Shown here: in pieces, positions 14,642 through 24,734 of the stretch
Layout of the letters: every line of letters starts with the position of its first letter
Position numbering within the stretch: position 1 is the stretch's first letter
Assembly (NCBI RefSeq): GCF_000255295.1
Contig: NC_017030.1
Coordinates: forward strand, 8,902,328-8,966,327
Reading direction: 5' to 3'
Source: Corallococcus coralloides DSM 2259
GTDB lineage: Bacteria > Myxococcota > Myxococcia > Myxococcales > Myxococcaceae
DNA: 64,000 bases
Notes under the pieces: model-generated
What the model saw: the letters and a program-made list of their open reading frames with translations, nothing else
Told to the model about the DNA's origin: nothing
Database searches by the model: none
Translations under genes and position numbers: made by a program

Positions 14642-16012
14642 TCAGGCGCCGACTTCCTTCTGCGCCTGGGCGACCGTCTTCTCGATGAGCGCCTGGATCT
14701 CCTTCACGCGGGCCTCCGTGCTGGCCTCGTAGCGCAGCACCAGGATGGGCTGCGTGTTCGACGCGCGGATGAGCCCCCAGCCGTCCGGGAACGTCACGCG
14801 CACGCCGTCCACGTCCACCACCTTGTGGCCCGCGTCGCGCAGGATTTCCGTGGCGCGCTTCACCATGGCGAACTTCTTCTCCTCCGTCGTGTCGAAGCGC
14901 AGCTCGGGGCTGGCGAAGGTCTTCGGCACGTCGGAGAGCAGCTGCGACATGGACTGCTTCTCCTGCGTCAGAATCTCCAGCAGGCGCGCGGACGCGTACA
15001 CCGCGTCGTCGAAGCCGAAGTAGCGGTGCTTGAAGAAGATGTGGCCGCTCATCTCTCCGGCCAGCTCCGCGTGCTCCTCCTTCATCTTCGACTTGATGAG
15101 GGAGTGGCCCGCCTTCCACATGATGGGCCTGCCGCCGTGCTTCGCGATGTCGTCGTACATCGTGTAGCTGCACTTCACCTCGCCGATGATGGCCGCGCCC
15201 GGGGCCTCCTTCAGCACGTAGCGGCTGAAGAGCACCATCAGCTGATCCCCCCAGAGCACGTTGCCCTGGTCGTCGATGACGCCGATGCGGTCGCTGTCGC
15301 CGTCGTACGCGATGCCCACCTCCGCCTTGACCTCCTTCACCTTCTTGATGAGGTCCTGGAGGTTCTCCACCACCGTGGGGTCCGGGTGGTGGTTGGGGAA
15401 GTCCGCGTCCATCTCGCAGAACAGGGGCACCACGTCGAAGCCCATGCTCTCGAACAGGGGCACCGCGATGGCGCCGCCCGTGCCGTTGCCCGCGTCGATG
15501 ACGATCTTCATCCCCTTGCGGCCCACCTTCACCGTCTGGCGGATGAAGTGGTTGTAGGGCGTGATGATGTCGTAGGGCGTGACCTTGCCGGGCTTGTCGG
15601 AGGTCGCGAAGTCCTTCGCCTCGATGAGGCGGCGCAGCTCCTTGATTTCGGGGCCGTGGAAGGTCGTCTTGCCGGCGCCAATCTTGAAGCCGTTGAACTC
15701 CTTCGGGTTGTGGCTGCCGGTGATCATCGCCAGGCCGTCCACGGGCAGCGTGTTCGCCGCGAAGTAGGTCAGCGGCGTCGGCACCACGCCCACGTCGTAG
15801 ACGTCCAGGCCGGTGGCGGTGAGGCCCTTCGCGAGCGCGTCGCGGAAGCGCGTGGAGGACTCGCGGCAGTCGCGGCCCACCACGATGGAGGTGCCGCCCT
15901 TGCGGCGGATCATGGTGCCCAGGCCCAGGCCCAGGAGCTCCACCACCTCGATGGTGAGGTCCTTGTCCACCAGACCTCGGATGTCGTACTCGCGGAAGAT
16001 GTGCGCGTTCAT
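14642..16012 (-). CDS. phosphomannomutase/phosphoglucomutase
   Basis: 456 residues of the alpha-D-phosphohexomutase family, which interconverts hexose 1- and 6-phosphates. The phosphoserine is S100 in MITGSHNPKEFNG. The metal loop is D237-G-D239-S-D241-R. A sugar-binding GEMSGH and the C-terminal phosphate loop RASNTQPILVLRYE are present. The ATG at 16012 begins the conserved HIFREYDIRG; an open frame back to 16069 adds nothing conserved. Together with the ManC gene at 18784 and the ROK kinase at 13655 it covers steps from hexose to GDP-mannose. Confidence 0.94.
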   Translation of the reverse strand: MNAHIFREYDIRGLVDKDLTIEVVELLGLGLGTMIRRKGGTSIVVGRDCRESSTRFRDALAKGLTATGLDVYDVGVVPTPLTYFAANTLPVDGLAMITGSHNPKEFNGFKIGAGKTTFHGPEIKELRRLIEAKDFATSDKPGKVTPYDIITPYNHFIRQTVKVGRKGMKIVIDAGNGTGGAIAVPLFESMGFDVVPLFCEMDADFPNHHPDPTVVENLQDLIKKVKEVKAEVGIAYDGDSDRIGVIDDQGNVLWGDQLMVLFSRYVLKEAPGAAIIGEVKCSYTMYDDIAKHGGRPIMWKAGHSLIKSKMKEEHAELAGEMSGHIFFKHRYFGFDDAVYASARLLEILTQEKQSMSQLLSDVPKTFASPELRFDTTEEKKFAMVKRATEILRDAGHKVVDVDGVRVTFPDGWGLIRASNTQPILVLRYEASTEARVKEIQALIEKTVAQAQKEVGA

Positions 16013-16181: not shown

Positions 16182-18569
16182 TCAGGCCATGGCCCCGGGG
16201 GCCTGGGCCCCGGCGCCGGCCCCGGAGCCCACAGGCACCCGCCGCAGCAGTGACTGGTAGTGCTTCAGCCAGGACGTGTTCAGCGGGTCCAGTTTGAGGG
16301 CCTCCGCGTAGCGCTCCAGCGCGGCCGGGACGGCCCGTTGGACCTCCAACGCATGACCCTGGGTGAAGAGGGCGCGGGCCTTCTTCTCCACCTCCGGCCG
16401 GGCGGCCAGGAAGGCGCTGCGCAGGGCCTCCATGGTGGGCTCCGGGACGCCCGCGGCCACGCAACGGGCCAATCCGCCCAGGTTGCCTCGGGTGGCGTCG
16501 TAGCCCACTCGGGAAAGCGGATCGCCGAGCATCCGCTGCGCGGCCAGCACGCGCACGCGCAGGGCGTCCAGGGCCTGACGCTGGCCGGTGGGCAGCGGGC
16601 GGTTCTGGAACGCGGCCAGGCGGCGCTGGGCGGCCTGGGCGCGGCGGTGGATGTCGCCGAAGTCGGCGTCGTGCTTCGCGCCCAGCAGCGTGTAGGGGTC
16701 CCGGGCAACGGCCTCCGCGCGGGACAGCATGCGGGCAAGCTCCGCGTCGGGCGCGGGCTCCGCGTCCTCCATGAGGGCGCGGGAGAGCAGCCGGCCCAGC
16801 GCGGGGAACTCGTCGGAGAAGTGGACGAAGACGCCCGCGGGCACGTTCCAGGTGCGCGCCTCGTCGAAGGTGACGTGGCGGACGACGTCGCAGGCGCCCA
16901 GGGCCGTCTCGCCCCGGAAGGACACCTCCACCGTCAGCCGCGCGGCGAGCGGGGGCAGTGAGCCCTGGCACTCGGCGAAGAGGCCCTCGGGGGCGACGTC
17001 GCTCACGGAGACGGGCTGGAGGACTTCGCCCGGCGTGAGGCCCAGGCGCACGCGCAGGTCCGCGGGCGCGTCCGTGCGGGGCGCGGAGGCCTCCAGCGGC
17101 GGCACGGGGTTCACCAGCGGAATGGGCGCGGCCTCATGGACGACGTCCACCAGCGGAATGGGCGGAGGCGACGGAATGGACGCGGGCTCCAGCGAGGGCG
17201 CCAGCGTCATGAACGGGATGGCCGCGGCGCCCAGCGTGGACGTGGGGTTCACCGCGGCCTGCGCCGTGACGTCCAGGGGCGAGGCTGGATCCACCAGCAG
17301 GATGGGCGCGCCGGCCTGGAGGGAGTTCGGCTCGATGATGCCGAGCTTCATCGTCTTGGCCGGCGCGTGGGACACGGCCTGCGGCTCCGGCTCGGCATCC
17401 CCCAGCAGCGCCACGGCGGAAGCCCAGAACGCGGCGACCTCCGCGCGCATGGCCCCCTCACCGGAGCGGGCGTTGGACGGCGCGCCATCCGCCGCGCGCA
17501 GCGCCGCGTCCTCCATGGACGTCGCGGCCATGCCCCACTCGGGCACGTCCTCCACGATGTCGAAGTCGTCCGCCGCGTCGTGCTGCTCGGCGCTCCCCTC
17601 CGCCGTGGCGACCCCCTCCACGTCGGCCACATCCTCGGGAGCATCCGCGGACGCGTTGCGCACCGGCGCCTTCAGACCCAGCGCCTCCGCGAGCGCGACG
17701 CGGAAGGCCCACGCGCTGTCGAACCGCTCCTCCGGCTTCGCGGCCAGCGCGCGCATCAGCACGGTGGACAGCGCGGGCGGCACGCTCGCGTTGAGGGCGT
17801 GCGGCGGGAACAGCGTCACGCCCGCGGAGCGCCCCAGCCCGAACGGCAGCCGGCCCGTCACCAGCAGGTAGCCCGCCACGCCCATCGCATGCACATCCGC
17901 GCGAGGGCTCCGGTTCATCCCCACGCACTGCTCGGGCGCCATGAACGTGGGCGAGCCCACCGTCACACCCTGCGCGCGCTCCTCCTGCGACAGCGCCGCC
18001 TCCCGCACCGCGCCCGCGCCGAAGTCGCGCACCCGCACGCGCCGCTCGCCCTTCGCGTCGCGCGTGACGAACATCGAATCCAGCGTGAGGTCCCCGTGCA
18101 CCAGCCCCCGCGCGTGCGCCGCCTCCAGCCCCGCGAGCGCCTGATCCAACACCTCGCCCACCTCGACCGGCGACAGCGGCAGGGGCAGCGCGCTCAGCGA
18201 CTCGCCCTCCGGCGCCTCCTGCAGCACGCAGGGCAGTCCTTGCGGACCGGGGCGCACGTCCAGCACGCGCGCCACGTGGCGGTGCACGACGTTGCGCTGC
18301 GCCAGCGCCTCCGCGATGAACCGGGCACGCACGGCGGGACGGGCCGCCAGGTGCGCGTGCAGCACCTTCACGGAGAAGCGGTGCCCGGTGGGCACGTACT
18401 CCGCCAGGTACACCGACGCCACCGCCCCCACCTCCAGCCGGCGCTTCAGGAGCAGCGGCCCGTGCCGCTGGCCCTCCAGCGAATCCCCCGGCACCGGAGG
18501 CCGGGCAGCGACGGAGCACGCCTCCCCATCCCGGTGTTCGCCCACGCAGCGCTTGCAGCCCATCGCCAT
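16182..18569 (-). CDS. Ser/Thr kinase-like protein fused to PilZ-like and J-like/TPR regions
   Basis: 795 residues from ATG 18569 (ATG 18563 fits the AGGCGGGG site equally well). A CKRC pair at 5-8 precedes a protein-kinase fold. The lysine is K68 and DFG is at 182-184. The catalytic loop reads HGDLTLDS (158-165): the aspartate is kept, but the usual Lys and Asn are Thr and Ser and the P-loop is poor, so activity is doubtful. A long Ala/Pro linker leads to a PilZ-like domain (about 535-640), then a J-domain-like DPYTLLGA segment and a TPR-like tail. Probably a myxobacterial signalling scaffold. Confidence 0.8.
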   Translation of the reverse strand: MAMGCKRCVGEHRDGEACSVAARPPVPGDSLEGQRHGPLLLKRRLEVGAVASVYLAEYVPTGHRFSVKVLHAHLAARPAVRARFIAEALAQRNVVHRHVARVLDVRPGPQGLPCVLQEAPEGESLSALPLPLSPVEVGEVLDQALAGLEAAHARGLVHGDLTLDSMFVTRDAKGERRVRVRDFGAGAVREAALSQEERAQGVTVGSPTFMAPEQCVGMNRSPRADVHAMGVAGYLLVTGRLPFGLGRSAGVTLFPPHALNASVPPALSTVLMRALAAKPEERFDSAWAFRVALAEALGLKAPVRNASADAPEDVADVEGVATAEGSAEQHDAADDFDIVEDVPEWGMAATSMEDAALRAADGAPSNARSGEGAMRAEVAAFWASAVALLGDAEPEPQAVSHAPAKTMKLGIIEPNSLQAGAPILLVDPASPLDVTAQAAVNPTSTLGAAAIPFMTLAPSLEPASIPSPPPIPLVDVVHEAAPIPLVNPVPPLEASAPRTDAPADLRVRLGLTPGEVLQPVSVSDVAPEGLFAECQGSLPPLAARLTVEVSFRGETALGACDVVRHVTFDEARTWNVPAGVFVHFSDEFPALGRLLSRALMEDAEPAPDAELARMLSRAEAVARDPYTLLGAKHDADFGDIHRRAQAAQRRLAAFQNRPLPTGQRQALDALRVRVLAAQRMLGDPLSRVGYDATRGNLGGLARCVAAGVPEPTMEALRSAFLAARPEVEKKARALFTQGHALEVQRAVPAALERYAEALKLDPLNTSWLKHYQSLLRRVPVGSGAGAGAQAPGAMA

Positions 18570-18761
18570 CCCCGCCTGTCGCCCCGGAAATGGGGCGGAC
18601 CCGGGATGGACTTGCAACCCGCGCGCCTCGTGCCCGGGGCCCGCTTTCGTCCGGACCGCGACACTCCAACACCCGCGAGTGCCAGCAAACCCCGCAAAAC
18701 GAACCAGGGCCCCCTGTAGAAACGACAGGGAGCCCCGGGAAGAAATGTGTGGGGTGAAACA

Positions 18762-18783: not shown

Positions 18784-19845
18784 CTACAGCAGCTTGGTGC
18801 GCTTCTTGGCCTTGAGGGCCTCGACGACCTTGCGGACGTCCTGGCTCTTGTCCTTGGGGACCACGAGCACGGCGTCACCGGAGTCCACCACCACCACGTC
18901 GTGCATGCCCACGACGGACAGCGTGCGCTTGTCGGACAGCACCACGCAGTTGGTGCAGTCCACCAGCACCGCGTCGCCGGAGACGACGTTGCCCTGCGCG
19001 TCCGCGGGGCGCACTTCGGGGATGGCGGCGAAGGAGCCCACGTCGGACCAGCCGAAGTCGCCGTCCAGCACCGCGATGTTCTCCGCCTTCTCCATCACGC
19101 CGTAGTCGATGGAGATGGAGGGCAGCTTGGGGAACACGCGCTTGAGCACGGCCGGGAAGGTGCGCTTGCCGGCGGCCTTCTGGAGCGCGTCCAGGCCCTT
19201 CTGCATCTCCGGCATGTGCTTCTGGAAGGCCTCCAGCATCACGTCCGCGCGGAAGACGAAGATGCCGCCGTTCCACAGGTAGTCGCCGCCGGCCACGTAC
19301 TCCTGCGCCGTCTTGAGGTCGGGCTTCTCCTTGAACGCCTTCACGCGGCGGCCGCCGCCGTCCAGCGCGTCACCGACCTGGATGTAGCCGTAGCCCGTCT
19401 CCGGGCGCGCGGGCTTGATGCCCAGCGTGACGATGTGGCCGCCTTCCGCGATGCGGGCTGCCTCCGCGAGCGTGCGCTGGAAGCCCTTCACGTCCCCCAC
19501 GTGGTGATCCGACGGCAGCACCGCGAGCACGCCCTTGGGGTCGCGCGCGGCCACCTGGAGCGCGGCGAGCGCGATGGCGGGCGCGGTGTTGCGCGCCACG
19601 GGCTCCACCAGGAGGTTGCCCTTGGGCAGCCCCTTCACCAGCTTCGCGGCCGTCTTCGCGTGCACGGGACCGCACACGATGAAGGTGTTCTTCACCGGGG
19701 CCAGGCCCTTGAGGCGCTGAGCGGTGTCGGTGAGCAGCGGCTGCTTGGAGGCCAGCGGGAGGAACTGCTTCGGACGGGCCTGGCGGGACAGCGGCCAGAA
19801 GCGGGTGCCGGAGCCTCCGGCCATGATGACGGGGTAGAGGGCCAT
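18784..19845 (-). CDS. manC: mannose-1-phosphate guanylyltransferase
   Basis: 353 residues, single-domain nucleotidyltransferase making GDP-mannose from mannose-1-phosphate and GTP. The N-terminal signature MAGGSGTRFWPLSRQARPKQFLPL is intact, followed by the GIKPARPETGYGYI block and an FVFRAD motif. There is no fused isomerase domain. AGGAG precedes the ATG at 19845. GDP-mannose would feed exo- or lipopolysaccharide synthesis, consistent with the nearby phosphohexomutase and the SGNH/MBOAT pair at 20.5-24.7 kb. Confidence 0.93.
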   Translation of the reverse strand: MALYPVIMAGGSGTRFWPLSRQARPKQFLPLASKQPLLTDTAQRLKGLAPVKNTFIVCGPVHAKTAAKLVKGLPKGNLLVEPVARNTAPAIALAALQVAARDPKGVLAVLPSDHHVGDVKGFQRTLAEAARIAEGGHIVTLGIKPARPETGYGYIQVGDALDGGGRRVKAFKEKPDLKTAQEYVAGGDYLWNGGIFVFRADVMLEAFQKHMPEMQKGLDALQKAAGKRTFPAVLKRVFPKLPSISIDYGVMEKAENIAVLDGDFGWSDVGSFAAIPEVRPADAQGNVVSGDAVLVDCTNCVVLSDKRTLSVVGMHDVVVVDSGDAVLVVPKDKSQDVRKVVEALKAKKRTKLL

Positions 19846-20510: not shown

Positions 20511-23258
20511 TTGAGCCTCAAACCCACATCCACCGGATGGACGCTGGCCTTCACCGTGCTGCTGGCGGTGGGGTTGTCCCTGGCGCCATTGCCGGAGAAG
20601 TACCGCCCCCTCCCCAGCCTTCGTCAGGAAGGTCCGCTCGGGCCCAAGCTGGCGGCGATCGCGCTGCCCGCGTCCCTGCGCGGCGTGAAGGCCCCGCGCC
20701 CTCCCTCGGACACGATGGTCCCGGACGCTCCGCCCGCCGCGGTCGCGGATGCGGACACGGCCGCCAACGACACGGATCCGCAGGCGGGCCCGCAGGTGGG
20801 GGAAGCCCCCGCCGTGCCCGGCATCGGCCTGGAGGAGCTGAGCGCCCCCACGCTGGCGACCGCGCGGGAGCTGGAGGCGCTGCGCGAGCGGATGGGCGCG
20901 AAGCACGTGGACATCGAGCTCAACTGCCGCAAGGCGCGCGCGGACGGGACGTGTGAAGAGGACGGCCTGGCGCCGTTCATGAAGGCGCTGGGAGATTTGC
21001 GCGCGGACACGCGGCGCACGCCGGTGCGGGTGGTGCATCTGGGCGATTCGCTGATCGCCTCCGACTACGTCACGGACGTGGTGCGCGACCGGCTCCAGGA
21101 GCGCTTTGGTTCGGGCGGTCCGGGCTTCCTCTACATCCACCGGCTGGCGAGCGCCGGCCGCGCCACGCGCGCGGGCACCGCGAGCACGGACGGATGGAAG
21201 ATGGAGCGGCTGGTGGACACGCACTGGCCCAAGGACCGCGTGGGCTGGACGGGCGTGGCCTTCTCCACGAACGGCCCCGCGCAGTCCACGCGCTACTCCG
21301 TGGAGGGCGCGCGCGAGGCGGAGTTGTTCTTCCTGGCCCAGCCCGCGAACGGCTCCGTGCAGGTGGCGGTGGACGGAAAGAACACGCAGCGCATCCAGAC
21401 GCGCGCGTTCGGTTCCAAGGCGGAAGCGGCCTTCGCCCGGCTCAAGCTTCCCGAGGGCGCCAAGACGCTGACGCTCACCGCGAGCGGCAAGACGGAGCTG
21501 CACGGCGTCTCCGTGGAGTCGGGCACGCCGGGCGTCGTCTACGACACGGTGGGCCTGCTGGGCGGCATGGCGGAGGTGTACCTGCGCGCGCAGCCCCAGG
21601 CGTTCCGCGCGCAGCTCAAGCACCGCAAGCCGTCGCTGGTGGTGTTGATGGTGGGCGGCAACGAGGCGTTCTTCCTCTCGCGCGACCGCACCACGCTGGA
21701 CGAGGTCCGCTCGCAGATGAAGGAGCTGGTGTCGCGCGTGCGCACGGCGGTGCCGGACGCGGCGTGCCTCGTCATGTCGCCCATCGACGCGGGCGTGCGC
21801 ACGCTGAGCGGCGAGGTGATCACCCGCCGGCACTCGGCGGAGGTGGCGGAGGTGTTCCGAGAGGAGGCGCGCGCGGGAGGCTGCGCCTTCTACGACACGC
21901 TGGCGGCGATGGGCGGCGAGGGCTCCGCGCTCAAGTGGCTGGAGTCCGGCCTGATGCTGGAGGACCTGGTGCACCCGCGCGTGCGCGGCTCCAACCTGCT
22001 GGGCCACCTGTTCGACCTGGCGTTGCAGCGGACCTTCGCGCGCACGCATCCGCCGCGCGTGCCGGGCACGGACAGGACCGGCCTGCGGGACGCGACCCCG
22101 GCGCTGCGCCGCACGTTCGAGTCCCTGGCCCGCCGGGAGTCCGGCGCGAAGCTGCGCGTGGGCATCGCGCAGCTGGGCGCGTCGCACACGGCGGCGCACT
22201 ACTTCTCCGACAAGGTCCGCGACGCGCTGACGAAGCGCTTCGGTGACGCGGGCCGGGGCTTCATCGCTGCGGGCAAGCCGTCCTCCCGGCTGGAGGCGGC
22301 GCGCGTGACGCGCACACTGGACGGCGCGTGGACGGTGGAGGACGCGAAGAGCACGCCTGGAGGCGTCTCCGGAACCCTCTGGGGTCTCACCGGCATCCGC
22401 GCGGTGGGCGCGCCGGGCGCGAGCCTGGGCATCTCCTTCTGCGAAGGCTGCGCGGAGGACAAGAACCGCCAGGGCCGGCTGGACCTGTACGCGCTGGACG
22501 CGCCGGGGGCCGCGGCGCCTGAAATCACGGTGGATGGAGAAGAGATTCCGCCGGAAGCCCCGCCGCCGGAGCCACTGACGCAGCCGACGGTGCGCATCCG
22601 TTCGTTCCCGGTGACGGGCGTGGCGCACTCGGTCCAGGTGAAGGTGCCGGAGGGTGGCGGGAGCGCGACGGTGCTGGGCGCGTCGTTGGAGTACGACGTG
22701 CCGGGGCTGGTGTACGACGCGCTGGGGTTGCCCGGCGCCACGGCCTTCACGGCGCGGGACATGGATGCGCCGGCGATGGACGCGCAGCTGTCCGCGCGCC
22801 GTCCGGACCTGCTGGTGTTCTGGTACGGCACCAACGAGGCGGAGCTGCCGGGGCTGGACGCGGACGGGCTGCGCCAGGACTACGCGGCGTTGATTTCACG
22901 CATGCGTAAGGCGACGAACGCGGAGTGCCTGGTCATCGGGCCCACGGACCGGCTCCAGCAGGACGCGAACGGCCGGTGGGACGAGGCGCCGTCGCTGGCG
23001 AAGGTGTTGAACACGCTGCCGCAGGTGGCGAAGGACGCGGGCTGCGCGTACTGGTCCGCGCGCGCGGCGATGGGTGGTGAGCGTTCCATGCAGCGCTGGC
23101 AGCGCCAGCCGGAGCCGCTGGGCCACGCGGACGGGGTGCACCTGACGCCGCAGGGCTACGCGGTGCTGGCGAACGCGTTCGTGAAGGACCTGATGGCGGC
23201 GTACGAGTCCACGAAGAAGGGCGGCGAGCCGACGGCCTCCGCCGCGGGAGCGCCCTGA
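20511..23258 (+). CDS. tandem SGNH (GDSL-like) protein, probable polysaccharide O-acyl transfer partner
   Basis: 915 residues with an N-terminal membrane anchor (about 10-27) and two SGNH domains. Domain 1 has GDS at about 178-180, a GGNEAFF block III and a DLVHPR histidine near 488. Domain 2 has GASH with the serine near 557, YGTNEAE, and a DGVHLTPQGY histidine near 875. Each half therefore keeps Ser, Asn and His. The start is TTG at 20511; the ATG at 20500 runs into a stop at once. The MBOAT gene follows after three bases. This mirrors AlgI/AlgJ/AlgX-type periplasmic acetyl transfer. Confidence 0.85.
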   Translation: MSLKPTSTGWTLAFTVLLAVGLSLAPLPEKYRPLPSLRQEGPLGPKLAAIALPASLRGVKAPRPPSDTMVPDAPPAAVADADTAANDTDPQAGPQVGEAPAVPGIGLEELSAPTLATARELEALRERMGAKHVDIELNCRKARADGTCEEDGLAPFMKALGDLRADTRRTPVRVVHLGDSLIASDYVTDVVRDRLQERFGSGGPGFLYIHRLASAGRATRAGTASTDGWKMERLVDTHWPKDRVGWTGVAFSTNGPAQSTRYSVEGAREAELFFLAQPANGSVQVAVDGKNTQRIQTRAFGSKAEAAFARLKLPEGAKTLTLTASGKTELHGVSVESGTPGVVYDTVGLLGGMAEVYLRAQPQAFRAQLKHRKPSLVVLMVGGNEAFFLSRDRTTLDEVRSQMKELVSRVRTAVPDAACLVMSPIDAGVRTLSGEVITRRHSAEVAEVFREEARAGGCAFYDTLAAMGGEGSALKWLESGLMLEDLVHPRVRGSNLLGHLFDLALQRTFARTHPPRVPGTDRTGLRDATPALRRTFESLARRESGAKLRVGIAQLGASHTAAHYFSDKVRDALTKRFGDAGRGFIAAGKPSSRLEAARVTRTLDGAWTVEDAKSTPGGVSGTLWGLTGIRAVGAPGASLGISFCEGCAEDKNRQGRLDLYALDAPGAAAPEITVDGEEIPPEAPPPEPLTQPTVRIRSFPVTGVAHSVQVKVPEGGGSATVLGASLEYDVPGLVYDALGLPGATAFTARDMDAPAMDAQLSARRPDLLVFWYGTNEAELPGLDADGLRQDYAALISRMRKATNAECLVIGPTDRLQQDANGRWDEAPSLAKVLNTLPQVAKDAGCAYWSARAAMGGERSMQRWQRQPEPLGHADGVHLTPQGYAVLANAFVKDLMAAYESTKKGGEPTASAAGAP

Positions 23259-23261
23259 GCC

Positions 23262-24734
23262 GTGCTGTCCCACAGCCTCCAGTACGTCGTCTTCGTCATC
23301 GCGGTGTTCGCGCTCTACTGGGCGGTGCACCGGCATTACTGGCCGCGGATGCTGTTGCTGCTGGCGGCCAGCCTGCTGGTCTACGTGTCGTTCCTCGGGG
23401 TGCCGCTGATCGCGTTCGTGGGCGGGATGCCGCCGGGCGAGCTGGTCGTGAAGCTGGTGCCGCTGTTCATCTTCCTGGCCGGCGTGACGGTGGATCACCT
23501 GCTGGTGAAGGGGATGGGGGCCACGGAGCGGCCGGGGCTGCGCAAGGCGCTGGTGGTGCTGTCCATCGTCTCCAACCTGGGGCTGCTGGCGGGCTTCAAG
23601 TACCTGGAGCTGTTGCGCAGGACGGTGTCGTCGCTCTTGGGGCCCTGGGGCGTGGAGGTGCGGCCGGAGCCATTCCATCTCCTGTTGCCGGTGGGCCTGT
23701 CGTTCTTCGTGTTCCAGGCCATCAGCTACACGGTGGACGTGTACCGGGGGAAGGCGAGCTCCGAGCACTCGTTCGTGGAGCACCTGCTCTACATGCTGTT
23801 CTTCCCGCGCGTGTTGAGCGGGCCGATTGTCCGCGCGTCGGAGCTGATGGCGCACTTCCGGGAAGTGCCCACGCTGTCGTCGGATGATGGGAACAAGGCG
23901 CTGTTCCGCATTGCCGTAGGGCTGGTGAAGAAGCTGGTCATCGCGGACGTGCTGGGCAGCGGCATCGTGGATCCGGTGTTCGGCAGTCCGCACGCGTACT
24001 CGTCGGCGGAGTGCGCGGTGGCGGCGGTCGCGTACACGTTGGAGCTGTACTACGACTTCTCGGGGTACTCGGACATCGCGATTGGGGTGGCGTCGCTGTT
24101 CGGCTTCAAGTTCCCGGAGAACTTCGCGCGGCCGTATCTGGCGAAGAACCTGTTCGAGTTCTGGAACCGCTGGCACATGAGCCTGTCGTCATGGCTGCGG
24201 GACTACCTGTACATCCCGCTGGGCGGCAACCGGCGGTCGAAGCCGCGGGTGTGCTTCAACCTGATGATGGTGATGGTGCTGGGAGGCCTGTGGCACGGGG
24301 CGGACTGGCGCTTCGCGGTCTGGGGCGCGGTGCACGGCGTGGCGTTGTGCGGGGTGCGGTGCTGGTGGTGGTTCAAGGGCAAGCAGCAGGAGCCGGGCCC
24401 GGCGCGCGTGGCCATTGGGATGTTGGCCACGTTCACGCTGGTGGTGTTGACGCGCGTGGTGTTCCGGGCGCCGGACATGGCGCACGCGGGTGAGTTCTAC
24501 GCACGGATGCTGGCGGGAATCCCAGGCCTGGCGAACGTGGGCCCGCTGGTGTGGAGCATGCTGGCCATCGCGGTCCTCGCGCACACGCTGCCGATGAAGC
24601 TCTACGACACCGCGGCGCTCGTGTTCCTCAAGATGCCCGCGCCCGCGAGAGCGGTGGTGCTGGTGCTCCTGGGCCTGGGCATCCGCCAGCTGTCCACGCT
24701 GGAGACCCGGCCGTACGTGTACCTGCAGTTCTGA
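23262..24734 (+). CDS. MBOAT family O-acyltransferase (AlgI-like)
   Basis: 490 residues with about ten membrane segments. Family hallmarks are FFPRVLSGPIVRASE, YYDFSGYSDIAIG, the FEFWNRWHMSLSSWLRDYLYIPLGG block, and the catalytic histidine in GGLWHGADW. It moves acyl groups from the cytoplasm across the inner membrane for transfer onto a polysaccharide by the SGNH partner encoded just upstream. The start is GTG at 23262. Which polymer is modified is not shown; nearby GDP-mannose genes hint at a mannose-containing glycan. Confidence 0.92.
   Translation: MLSHSLQYVVFVIAVFALYWAVHRHYWPRMLLLLAASLLVYVSFLGVPLIAFVGGMPPGELVVKLVPLFIFLAGVTVDHLLVKGMGATERPGLRKALVVLSIVSNLGLLAGFKYLELLRRTVSSLLGPWGVEVRPEPFHLLLPVGLSFFVFQAISYTVDVYRGKASSEHSFVEHLLYMLFFPRVLSGPIVRASELMAHFREVPTLSSDDGNKALFRIAVGLVKKLVIADVLGSGIVDPVFGSPHAYSSAECAVAAVAYTLELYYDFSGYSDIAIGVASLFGFKFPENFARPYLAKNLFEFWNRWHMSLSSWLRDYLYIPLGGNRRSKPRVCFNLMMVMVLGGLWHGADWRFAVWGAVHGVALCGVRCWWWFKGKQQEPGPARVAIGMLATFTLVVLTRVVFRAPDMAHAGEFYARMLAGIPGLANVGPLVWSMLAIAVLAHTLPMKLYDTAALVFLKMPAPARAVVLVLLGLGIRQLSTLETRPYVYLQF

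Follow-up and report, generated by a model that had tools for sequence, protein, structure and literature searches.

Among described proteins, a close comparator for the protein analyzed here is Pkn1 (MXAN_1467) of Myxococcus xanthus, which according to the text of its description combines a Ser/Thr kinase with a PilZ domain predicted not to bind c-di-GMP, and whose deletion reduces sporulation (PMC8316039). The same species has the PilZ-DnaK chaperones CsdK1 and CsdK2, in which PilZ is fused to a chaperone domain (PMC10313047), and the tyrosine pseudokinase EcpK, a myxobacterial kinase relative presented in the article text as a proposed scaffold that acts without phosphorylation (PMC12004946). 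Families of bacterial Ser/Thr pseudokinases with kinase folds, eroded catalytic motifs, and attached domains have been described by O'Boyle et al., whose abstract also states that bacterial Ser/Thr pseudokinases have been little explored by experiment (PMC12599244).

The protein is encoded in a stretch of 64,000 nucleotides of the Corallococcus coralloides DSM 2259 genome (the window), which sits within one contig of 10,080,619 bases, and it resembles each of these systems in part. With Pkn1, as described in the text of PMC8316039, it shares a kinase and a PilZ domain without predicted c-di-GMP binding, and a paralog in the same genome, which we assign to group B, has the same two domains and adds a J-like and a TPR-type region; the difference lies in the catalytic loop, which group B conserves as HRDLKP[DE]N (30 of 30 genomes) and the window protein does not. 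CsdK1 and CsdK2 carry DnaK itself, according to the text of PMC10313047, whereas the window protein has a J-like domain lacking HPD together with a kinase fold, and EcpK is described as a BY-kinase relative with a Walker-type active site and not as a Hanks-type fold (PMC12004946). Unlike the families in the main text of PMC12599244, in which the terms "Myxo," "PilZ," "DnaJ," and "TPR" do not occur, the erosion seen here is partial and confined to a single group of orthologs. In the literature searched, which was the article text of mostly open-access papers, no account of the ortholog group or of a J-like part in Pkn1 was found. A search on Corallococcus and pseudokinase gave no match, one on PilZ and pseudokinase gave no paper on a bacterial PilZ by title among the matches listed, and the text retrieved with Pkn1, Myxococcus, and tetratricopeptide made no mention of PilZ or DnaJ.

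What is new is a lineage-specific loss of catalytic residues, which the alignments and trees below show by different routes in Corallococcus, in the genus coded g5, and in a Myxococcus subclade. The repeated residue loss in other lineages, the paralogs, and an N-terminal CX2CX3HX5C motif all go beyond the initial annotation of the locus.

Domain organization

The whole coding frame spans positions 16182..18569 of the window on the minus strand, as do all features of the protein given below, and translates into 795 residues with one terminal stop at the frame end. Orthologs were collected as one protein per genome: 30 genomes contributed their top-scoring match, and two further sets of 22 and 13 genomes each contributed the only match they had at E 1e-58. 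Because all 65 have a Met at the position matching Met3 (18563), this is the likelier start and 793 residues the likelier length. Close to the N terminus (18516..18557) lies a zinc-knuckle-like CX2CX3HX5C (C5, C8, H12, and C18), recognized by pattern only, in which the four residues are invariant across 14 aligned rows, and the string M-x-C-x-x-C-x-x-x-H is present in 65 of 65 orthologs; zinc binding by this motif is putative. The Hanks-type kinase domain (residues 36-298; 17676..18464) matches Pfam PF00069 (Pkinase) at 64.8 bits against a cut-off of 31.7, as well as StkP, PknA, and PknB. Behind it comes a linker (residues 300-490; 17100..17672) that is predicted with low confidence (pLDDT below 40) and evolves fast (dN/dS 0.58 in Corallococcus), and then a PilZ domain (residues 497-605; 16755..17081), a J-like domain (residues 618-697; 16479..16718), and a TPR-type helical region (residues 698-782; 16224..16478), the last identified by VIA structure comparison. 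The same architecture is found in all 65 orthologs.

The initial annotation had read kinase-like, PilZ-like, J-like, and TPR regions into this one protein, and structure and profile evidence bears it out. Structure prediction, which had been proposed as the check on these regions, gave both the PilZ and the J fold in an AlphaFold model of residues 490-795 built from eight sequences (mean pLDDT 77, pTM 0.53), and neither region departed from the expected fold. Foldseek against the PDB returned no match for this model at E 0.001 or better, and its best rows were PilZ domains (Alg44, 4rt1_B, E 2.0e-2, probability 1.00), with J and TPR proteins next. In VIA the model matched the J domain 6rzy_A with Z 9.1 (70 of 70 residues aligned, rmsd 2.4), the PilZ domain of MotI, 5vx6_B, with Z 9.0 (96 residues, rmsd 2.7), and TPR rows with Z near 8.7, and since such Z values barely exceed the range that the tool calls common, support for the folds was also sought in sequence.

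Pfam finds neither PilZ nor J in the window protein, PF00226 matches none of the three family members of this genome at E 0.01, and TPR_2, with 17.5 bits, stays below the 27 it requires, so the folds rest on orthologs, structure, and profile comparison. The Pfam PilZ model exceeds its cut-off of 22.5 in one ortholog (L127, 27.7 bits) and in one paralog (L002, 34.8 bits). When the J segment was compared by hhalign with a profile of genuine J domains, namely six from this genome found by pattern among 12 J loci retrieved, the orthologs alone gave a probability of 86.87 (E 4.2e-6) and the addition of paralogs raised it to 96.65 (E 4.7e-10), whereas the two control segments, TPR and PilZ, gave 0.54 and 0.12. 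Model and profiles thereby show PilZ, J-like, and TPR folds as predicted parts of the window protein.

The presence of a fold does not extend to its ligand residues, and two functional proposals of the initial annotation, c-di-GMP input through the PilZ-like region and chaperone contact through the J-like segment, find no support. In the columns of residues 480-523, upstream of the PilZ DxSxxG site, there is no RxxxR in the window protein nor in 64 of 67 rows, and one of the three rows that do contain it has it inside a linker repeat; the second motif, (D/N)xSxxG, reads DVAPEG. Because RxxxR is missing, c-di-GMP input to the window protein appears unlikely. In the J segment NRPLP takes the place of the HPD loop, and HPD is absent from all 67 rows (65 orthologs and two paralogs), which makes canonical stimulation of DnaK by the J-like part likewise unlikely.

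The family and its paralogs

The combination of domains had been thought unusual, which is not so in myxobacteria: a PilZ-J-TPR profile matches at least 112 of 179 Myxococcota genomes and at least 35 of 83 genera in a survey that scored up to 13 candidates per genome and in which copy numbers are lower bounds. The module was also matched in 33 of 35 genomes, comprising 31 family genomes outside the 65 and four already used, with orthologs and paralogs pooled. C. coralloides has three full copies, the window protein and two paralogs, each with the module behind a kinase, and the window protein has the order kinase fold, PilZ, J-like, TPR. Identity over the two halves is 42% and 35% to one paralog and 41% and 36% to the other.

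As a control, the paralogs were examined in a selection of 30 genomes; 21 of the 28 orthologs with residue loss described below come from these. Group B kinases read HRDLKPDN in 29 genomes and HRDLKPEN in one, group C kinases read HRDLKPAN in 27 of the 27 genomes where they were found, and DFG is kept in all 57. Their Gly-loop is GxGGMGx in 27 of 30 group B rows, the other three being gapped, and in 27 of 27 group C rows. In the group B paralog of C. coralloides the kinase is accompanied by a PilZ domain (34.8 bits), a J-like segment, and a region of TPR type that scores 26.6 bits with TPR_2 (cut-off 27). Group B is probably M. xanthus Pkn1 (MXAN_1467), because one member is 693 residues long from its Met, which we take to be the length of Pkn1, and because its position near 1.74 Mb fits the locus number.

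No high-scoring counterpart of the third paralog (L003, with HRDLKPAN, at 713795-715552 of the C. coralloides genome) turned up in G059, G062, and G077, three genomes of the Myxococcus group with sizes of 9.0-9.5 Mb, of which the first two carry shorter kinase frames, at 57% and 64% identity, that are possibly remnants. A relative in a Myxococcaceae metagenome-assembled genome (L081) is split over two frames, with the PilZ part apart from J-TPR, through either a frameshift or a draft error.

Catalytic residues of the kinase domain

The catalytic loop reads HGDLTLDS (residues 158-165; 18075..18098) in place of HRDLKxxN, a change pointed out in the initial annotation and seen again in translation and alignment, as is the retention of the VAIK Lys68 (18366..18368), Asp160, and DFG (residues 182-184; 18018..18026). 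In the phmmer alignment to StkP, Ser165 falls on the Asn of HRDLKxxN, and this Mg-binding residue is missing, replaced by Ser165, in 16 of 16 Corallococcus orthologs. The residues expected of an active kinase, K68 (VAIK Lys), E87 (αC Glu), D160 (HRD Asp), and D182 (DFG Asp), are all present. The Gly-rich loop, EVGAVASV (18411..18434), has lost the first and third Gly of GxGxxG, with E46 and A51 in all 16 Corallococcus sequences. Across the 65 orthologs the VAIK Lys column holds K in 62 and R in three. All 16 Corallococcus retain the strict triad of VAIK Lys, HRD Asp, and DFG Asp, and a triad Asp is missing in eight of the 65 orthologs. By the triad definition, then, the aligned residues make the Corallococcus protein not a pseudokinase, and the term we use for it is "predicted catalytically impaired"; since the triad is kept, some kinase activity may persist. 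The full-length structure prediction gave a mean pLDDT of 51.7 for the kinase domain, and the kinase model derived from it was set aside as unusable.

The other kinases of the genome give these changes very different weight. Among 63 own-genome kinases, a sample found by similarity to the window protein in which divergent kinases may be absent, the Asn of HRDxxxxN is kept in 62, the window protein being the sole exception, and the HRD Asp is also kept in 62. The Lys of HRDLK is missing in 29 of the 63, many of which read HRDVSPxN or HRDISPxN. Both outer Gly of the loop are missing in 15 of 61, including the window protein and mostly as xxGGMAx, and with all three Gly of GxGxxG in just 30 of 61 the loop is a weak criterion. 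As both kinds of change are common, neither counts as evidence of inactivity; loss of Lys162 (HRDLK to HxDLS/T) was rejected as an early inactivation step, and the broken Gly-loop was downgraded as strong support for it. Another own-genome kinase, L326 (6078700-6080300), aligns, by a weak match, with HRC for HRD and with Gln in the VAIK Lys column, and would be a second candidate pseudokinase if the weak-match alignment is correct.

Loss of catalytic residues across orthologs

Genera are given by code, with g1 taken to be Corallococcus and g19 taken to be Myxococcus/Pyxidicoccus. HGDLT[LM]DS occurs in 16 of 16 g1 rows, which with the architecture common to 65 orthologs makes the changed loop more than chance. 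Beyond this genus, a catalytic residue (HRD Asp160, Mg-binding Asn165, or DFG Asp182) has been lost in 28 of the 65 orthologs, Asn165 being gone in 26, Asp160 in eight, and Asp182 in six. All 16 Corallococcus are affected (Asn to Ser), as are both g5 sequences (Asp160 to Gly), the one g2 sequence (Asn to Gln), and nine of 27 in g19, where Asn is gone in all nine and both Asp residues are gone as well in six of these. HxDxKPxN is kept in 19 orthologs of g3, g6, g7, g8, and g20, and since the outgroup paralogs and these 19 orthologs of five other genera are canonical, the direction of change is loss.

Two trees were used, one of the C-terminal module (67 rows) and one of the two paralogs as a proxy for the species (27 genomes), and both single out Corallococcus, g5, and one Myxococcus subclade as the groups mainly affected. 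The paralog-based tree has two changes at Asn165, three at Asp160, and two at Asp182; a count of four Asp160 losses from the C-module tree was dropped in favor of this one. That the two GFG groups arose once is not rejected (p-AU 0.07). On the same paralog tree g5 and Corallococcus are sisters, yet they have lost different residues, and simple coding as lost or not lost requires a minimum of two changes. Counted by residue, three lineages are thus affected, with losses that differ in the residue or in their place on the tree, or two at minimum if the sisters share an unseen earlier loss.

Divergence and selection

Divergence of the kinase domain was expressed as the mean amino acid difference over residues 60-297 and set against that of paralogs B and C in the same genome pairs. 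In Corallococcus it is 0.092 versus 0.049 and 0.045 for B and C (45 pairs), about double the paralogs, and in the degenerate Myxococcus 0.206 versus 0.057 and 0.060 (36 pairs); the single g5 pair gives 0.055 versus 0.008 and 0.016. Where Asp and Asn are intact in Myxococcus, the value is 0.129 versus 0.136 for B (10 pairs), with 0.063 versus 0.074 and 0.053 in the sole pair that has C, and the canonical pair gives 0.363 versus 0.403 and 0.275. One pair with HGDVSADN (G054 and G070) keeps both Asp and Asn yet evolves fast (0.118 versus 0.049 and 0.045), and therefore speed and residue loss coincide imperfectly. The C-terminal module shows no excess in Corallococcus (0.086 versus 0.135 and 0.091) and is fast in the degenerate Myxococcus also (0.233 versus 0.139 and 0.108).

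Median pairwise dN/dS of the kinase domain is 0.26 in Corallococcus, 0.31 in degenerate Myxococcus, 0.23 in intact Myxococcus, and 0.27 and 0.34 in two canonical groups, values that cover 59 of 65 rows (L120, L121, L136, L141, L147, and L148 lie outside the five groups) and come from NG86, which is crude at 70% GC, with pairs of dS 0.05 or less dropped and the remaining pairs non-independent. PilZ is less constrained in intact Myxococcus, at 0.60, than in Corallococcus, at 0.24. On these estimates the kinase domain is relaxed and not abandoned, with purifying selection persisting.

Proposed function and alternatives

The explanation that we favor, at a probability of roughly 0.58, is that the window protein is a soluble member of the kinase-PilZ-J-TPR family, of what we infer to be the Pkn1 type, that now acts mainly as a protein-binding scaffold. 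This retains part of the initial annotation, which had proposed an unusual signaling scaffold: the domain regions and the altered loop are confirmed and agree with a scaffold role, but its c-di-GMP input, chaperone contact, and rarity do not stand. Because Ser165 stands in for the Mg2+-holding Asn, the Corallococcus kinase domain would no longer phosphorylate efficiently, and with Lys68, Glu87, Asp160, and DFG kept, nucleotide binding and a shape switch may persist. The PilZ domain would no longer sense c-di-GMP, the J-like part would no longer drive DnaK, and together with the TPR region they could form a C-terminal docking module, for which the active paralogs or their substrates are candidate partners. 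More tentatively, the protein might be a hub of retired domains, in which kinase, PilZ, and J have each lost active or ligand residues with their folds kept, and in which several Myxococcaceae lineages separately gave up the kinase, since the function conserved is that of a scaffold, possibly for a still-active Pkn1 paralog. If that were true, the family would offer naturally replicated instances of a pseudokinase arising. In either case one orthologous group displays stages, from canonical loops through loss of Asn in Corallococcus to loss of both Asp in the Myxococcus subclade, and the intact paralogs from the same cells provide an internal control. It thereby becomes testable at what point and for what reason a kinase can dispense with catalysis, as does a non-catalytic role of the Pkn1 type in myxobacteria.

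A less probable alternative is that the enzyme is still an active, if atypical, kinase acting on substrates docked on the TPR region, in which Mn2+ or another residue perhaps makes up for Ser165 and a relaxed Gly-loop so that both are tolerated. The presence of Lys68, Glu87, Asp160, and DFG in 16 of 16 Corallococcus, the dN/dS of 0.26 indicating purifying selection on the domain, and the 14 other own-genome kinases that lack both outer Gly and keep the HRD Asp and Asn are all consistent with activity, but the window protein is the sole one without Asn among the 63 own-genome kinases examined, its kinase domain diverges about twice as much as the paralogs, and Asp residues have been lost in other lineages of the same ortholog group. 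It seems improbable that the protein is a pseudokinase which heterodimerizes with an active paralog, such as the Pkn1-group kinase, and switches it allosterically, by analogy with some eukaryotic pseudokinases; 30 of 30 genomes examined do contain a paralog that shares the architecture and has HRDLKP[DE]N intact, but the two genes lie far apart in the C. coralloides genome.

More improbable still is a role as regulator of GDP-mannose supply or polysaccharide synthesis, which the gene order suggests. Reading names off the translations by eye, the order is manC-like (18784..19845, minus strand), the kinase gene, manB-like (14642..16012, minus strand), and ROK-like, with the manC-like gene preceding the kinase gene, in the same orientation, in 25 of 27 loci and the manB-like gene following it in 21 of 27. 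However, the kinase gene is located elsewhere in two of the 27 loci, and the wider block of MBOAT-like, SGNH-like, manC, manB, and ROK-like genes is syntenic too, so that the neighborhood is weak evidence of a common role. The gap that separates the kinase gene from the manC-like gene has a lone terminator-like hairpin with a T-rich tail (18704-18738), this one site comparing with 2.1 expected in shuffles, and no promoter-like site was found; an operon with manC and manB was accordingly left as a weak candidate. The SGNH-like and MBOAT-like pair, also named by eye (20511-24734), adjoins the manC-like gene in most of the 27 loci.
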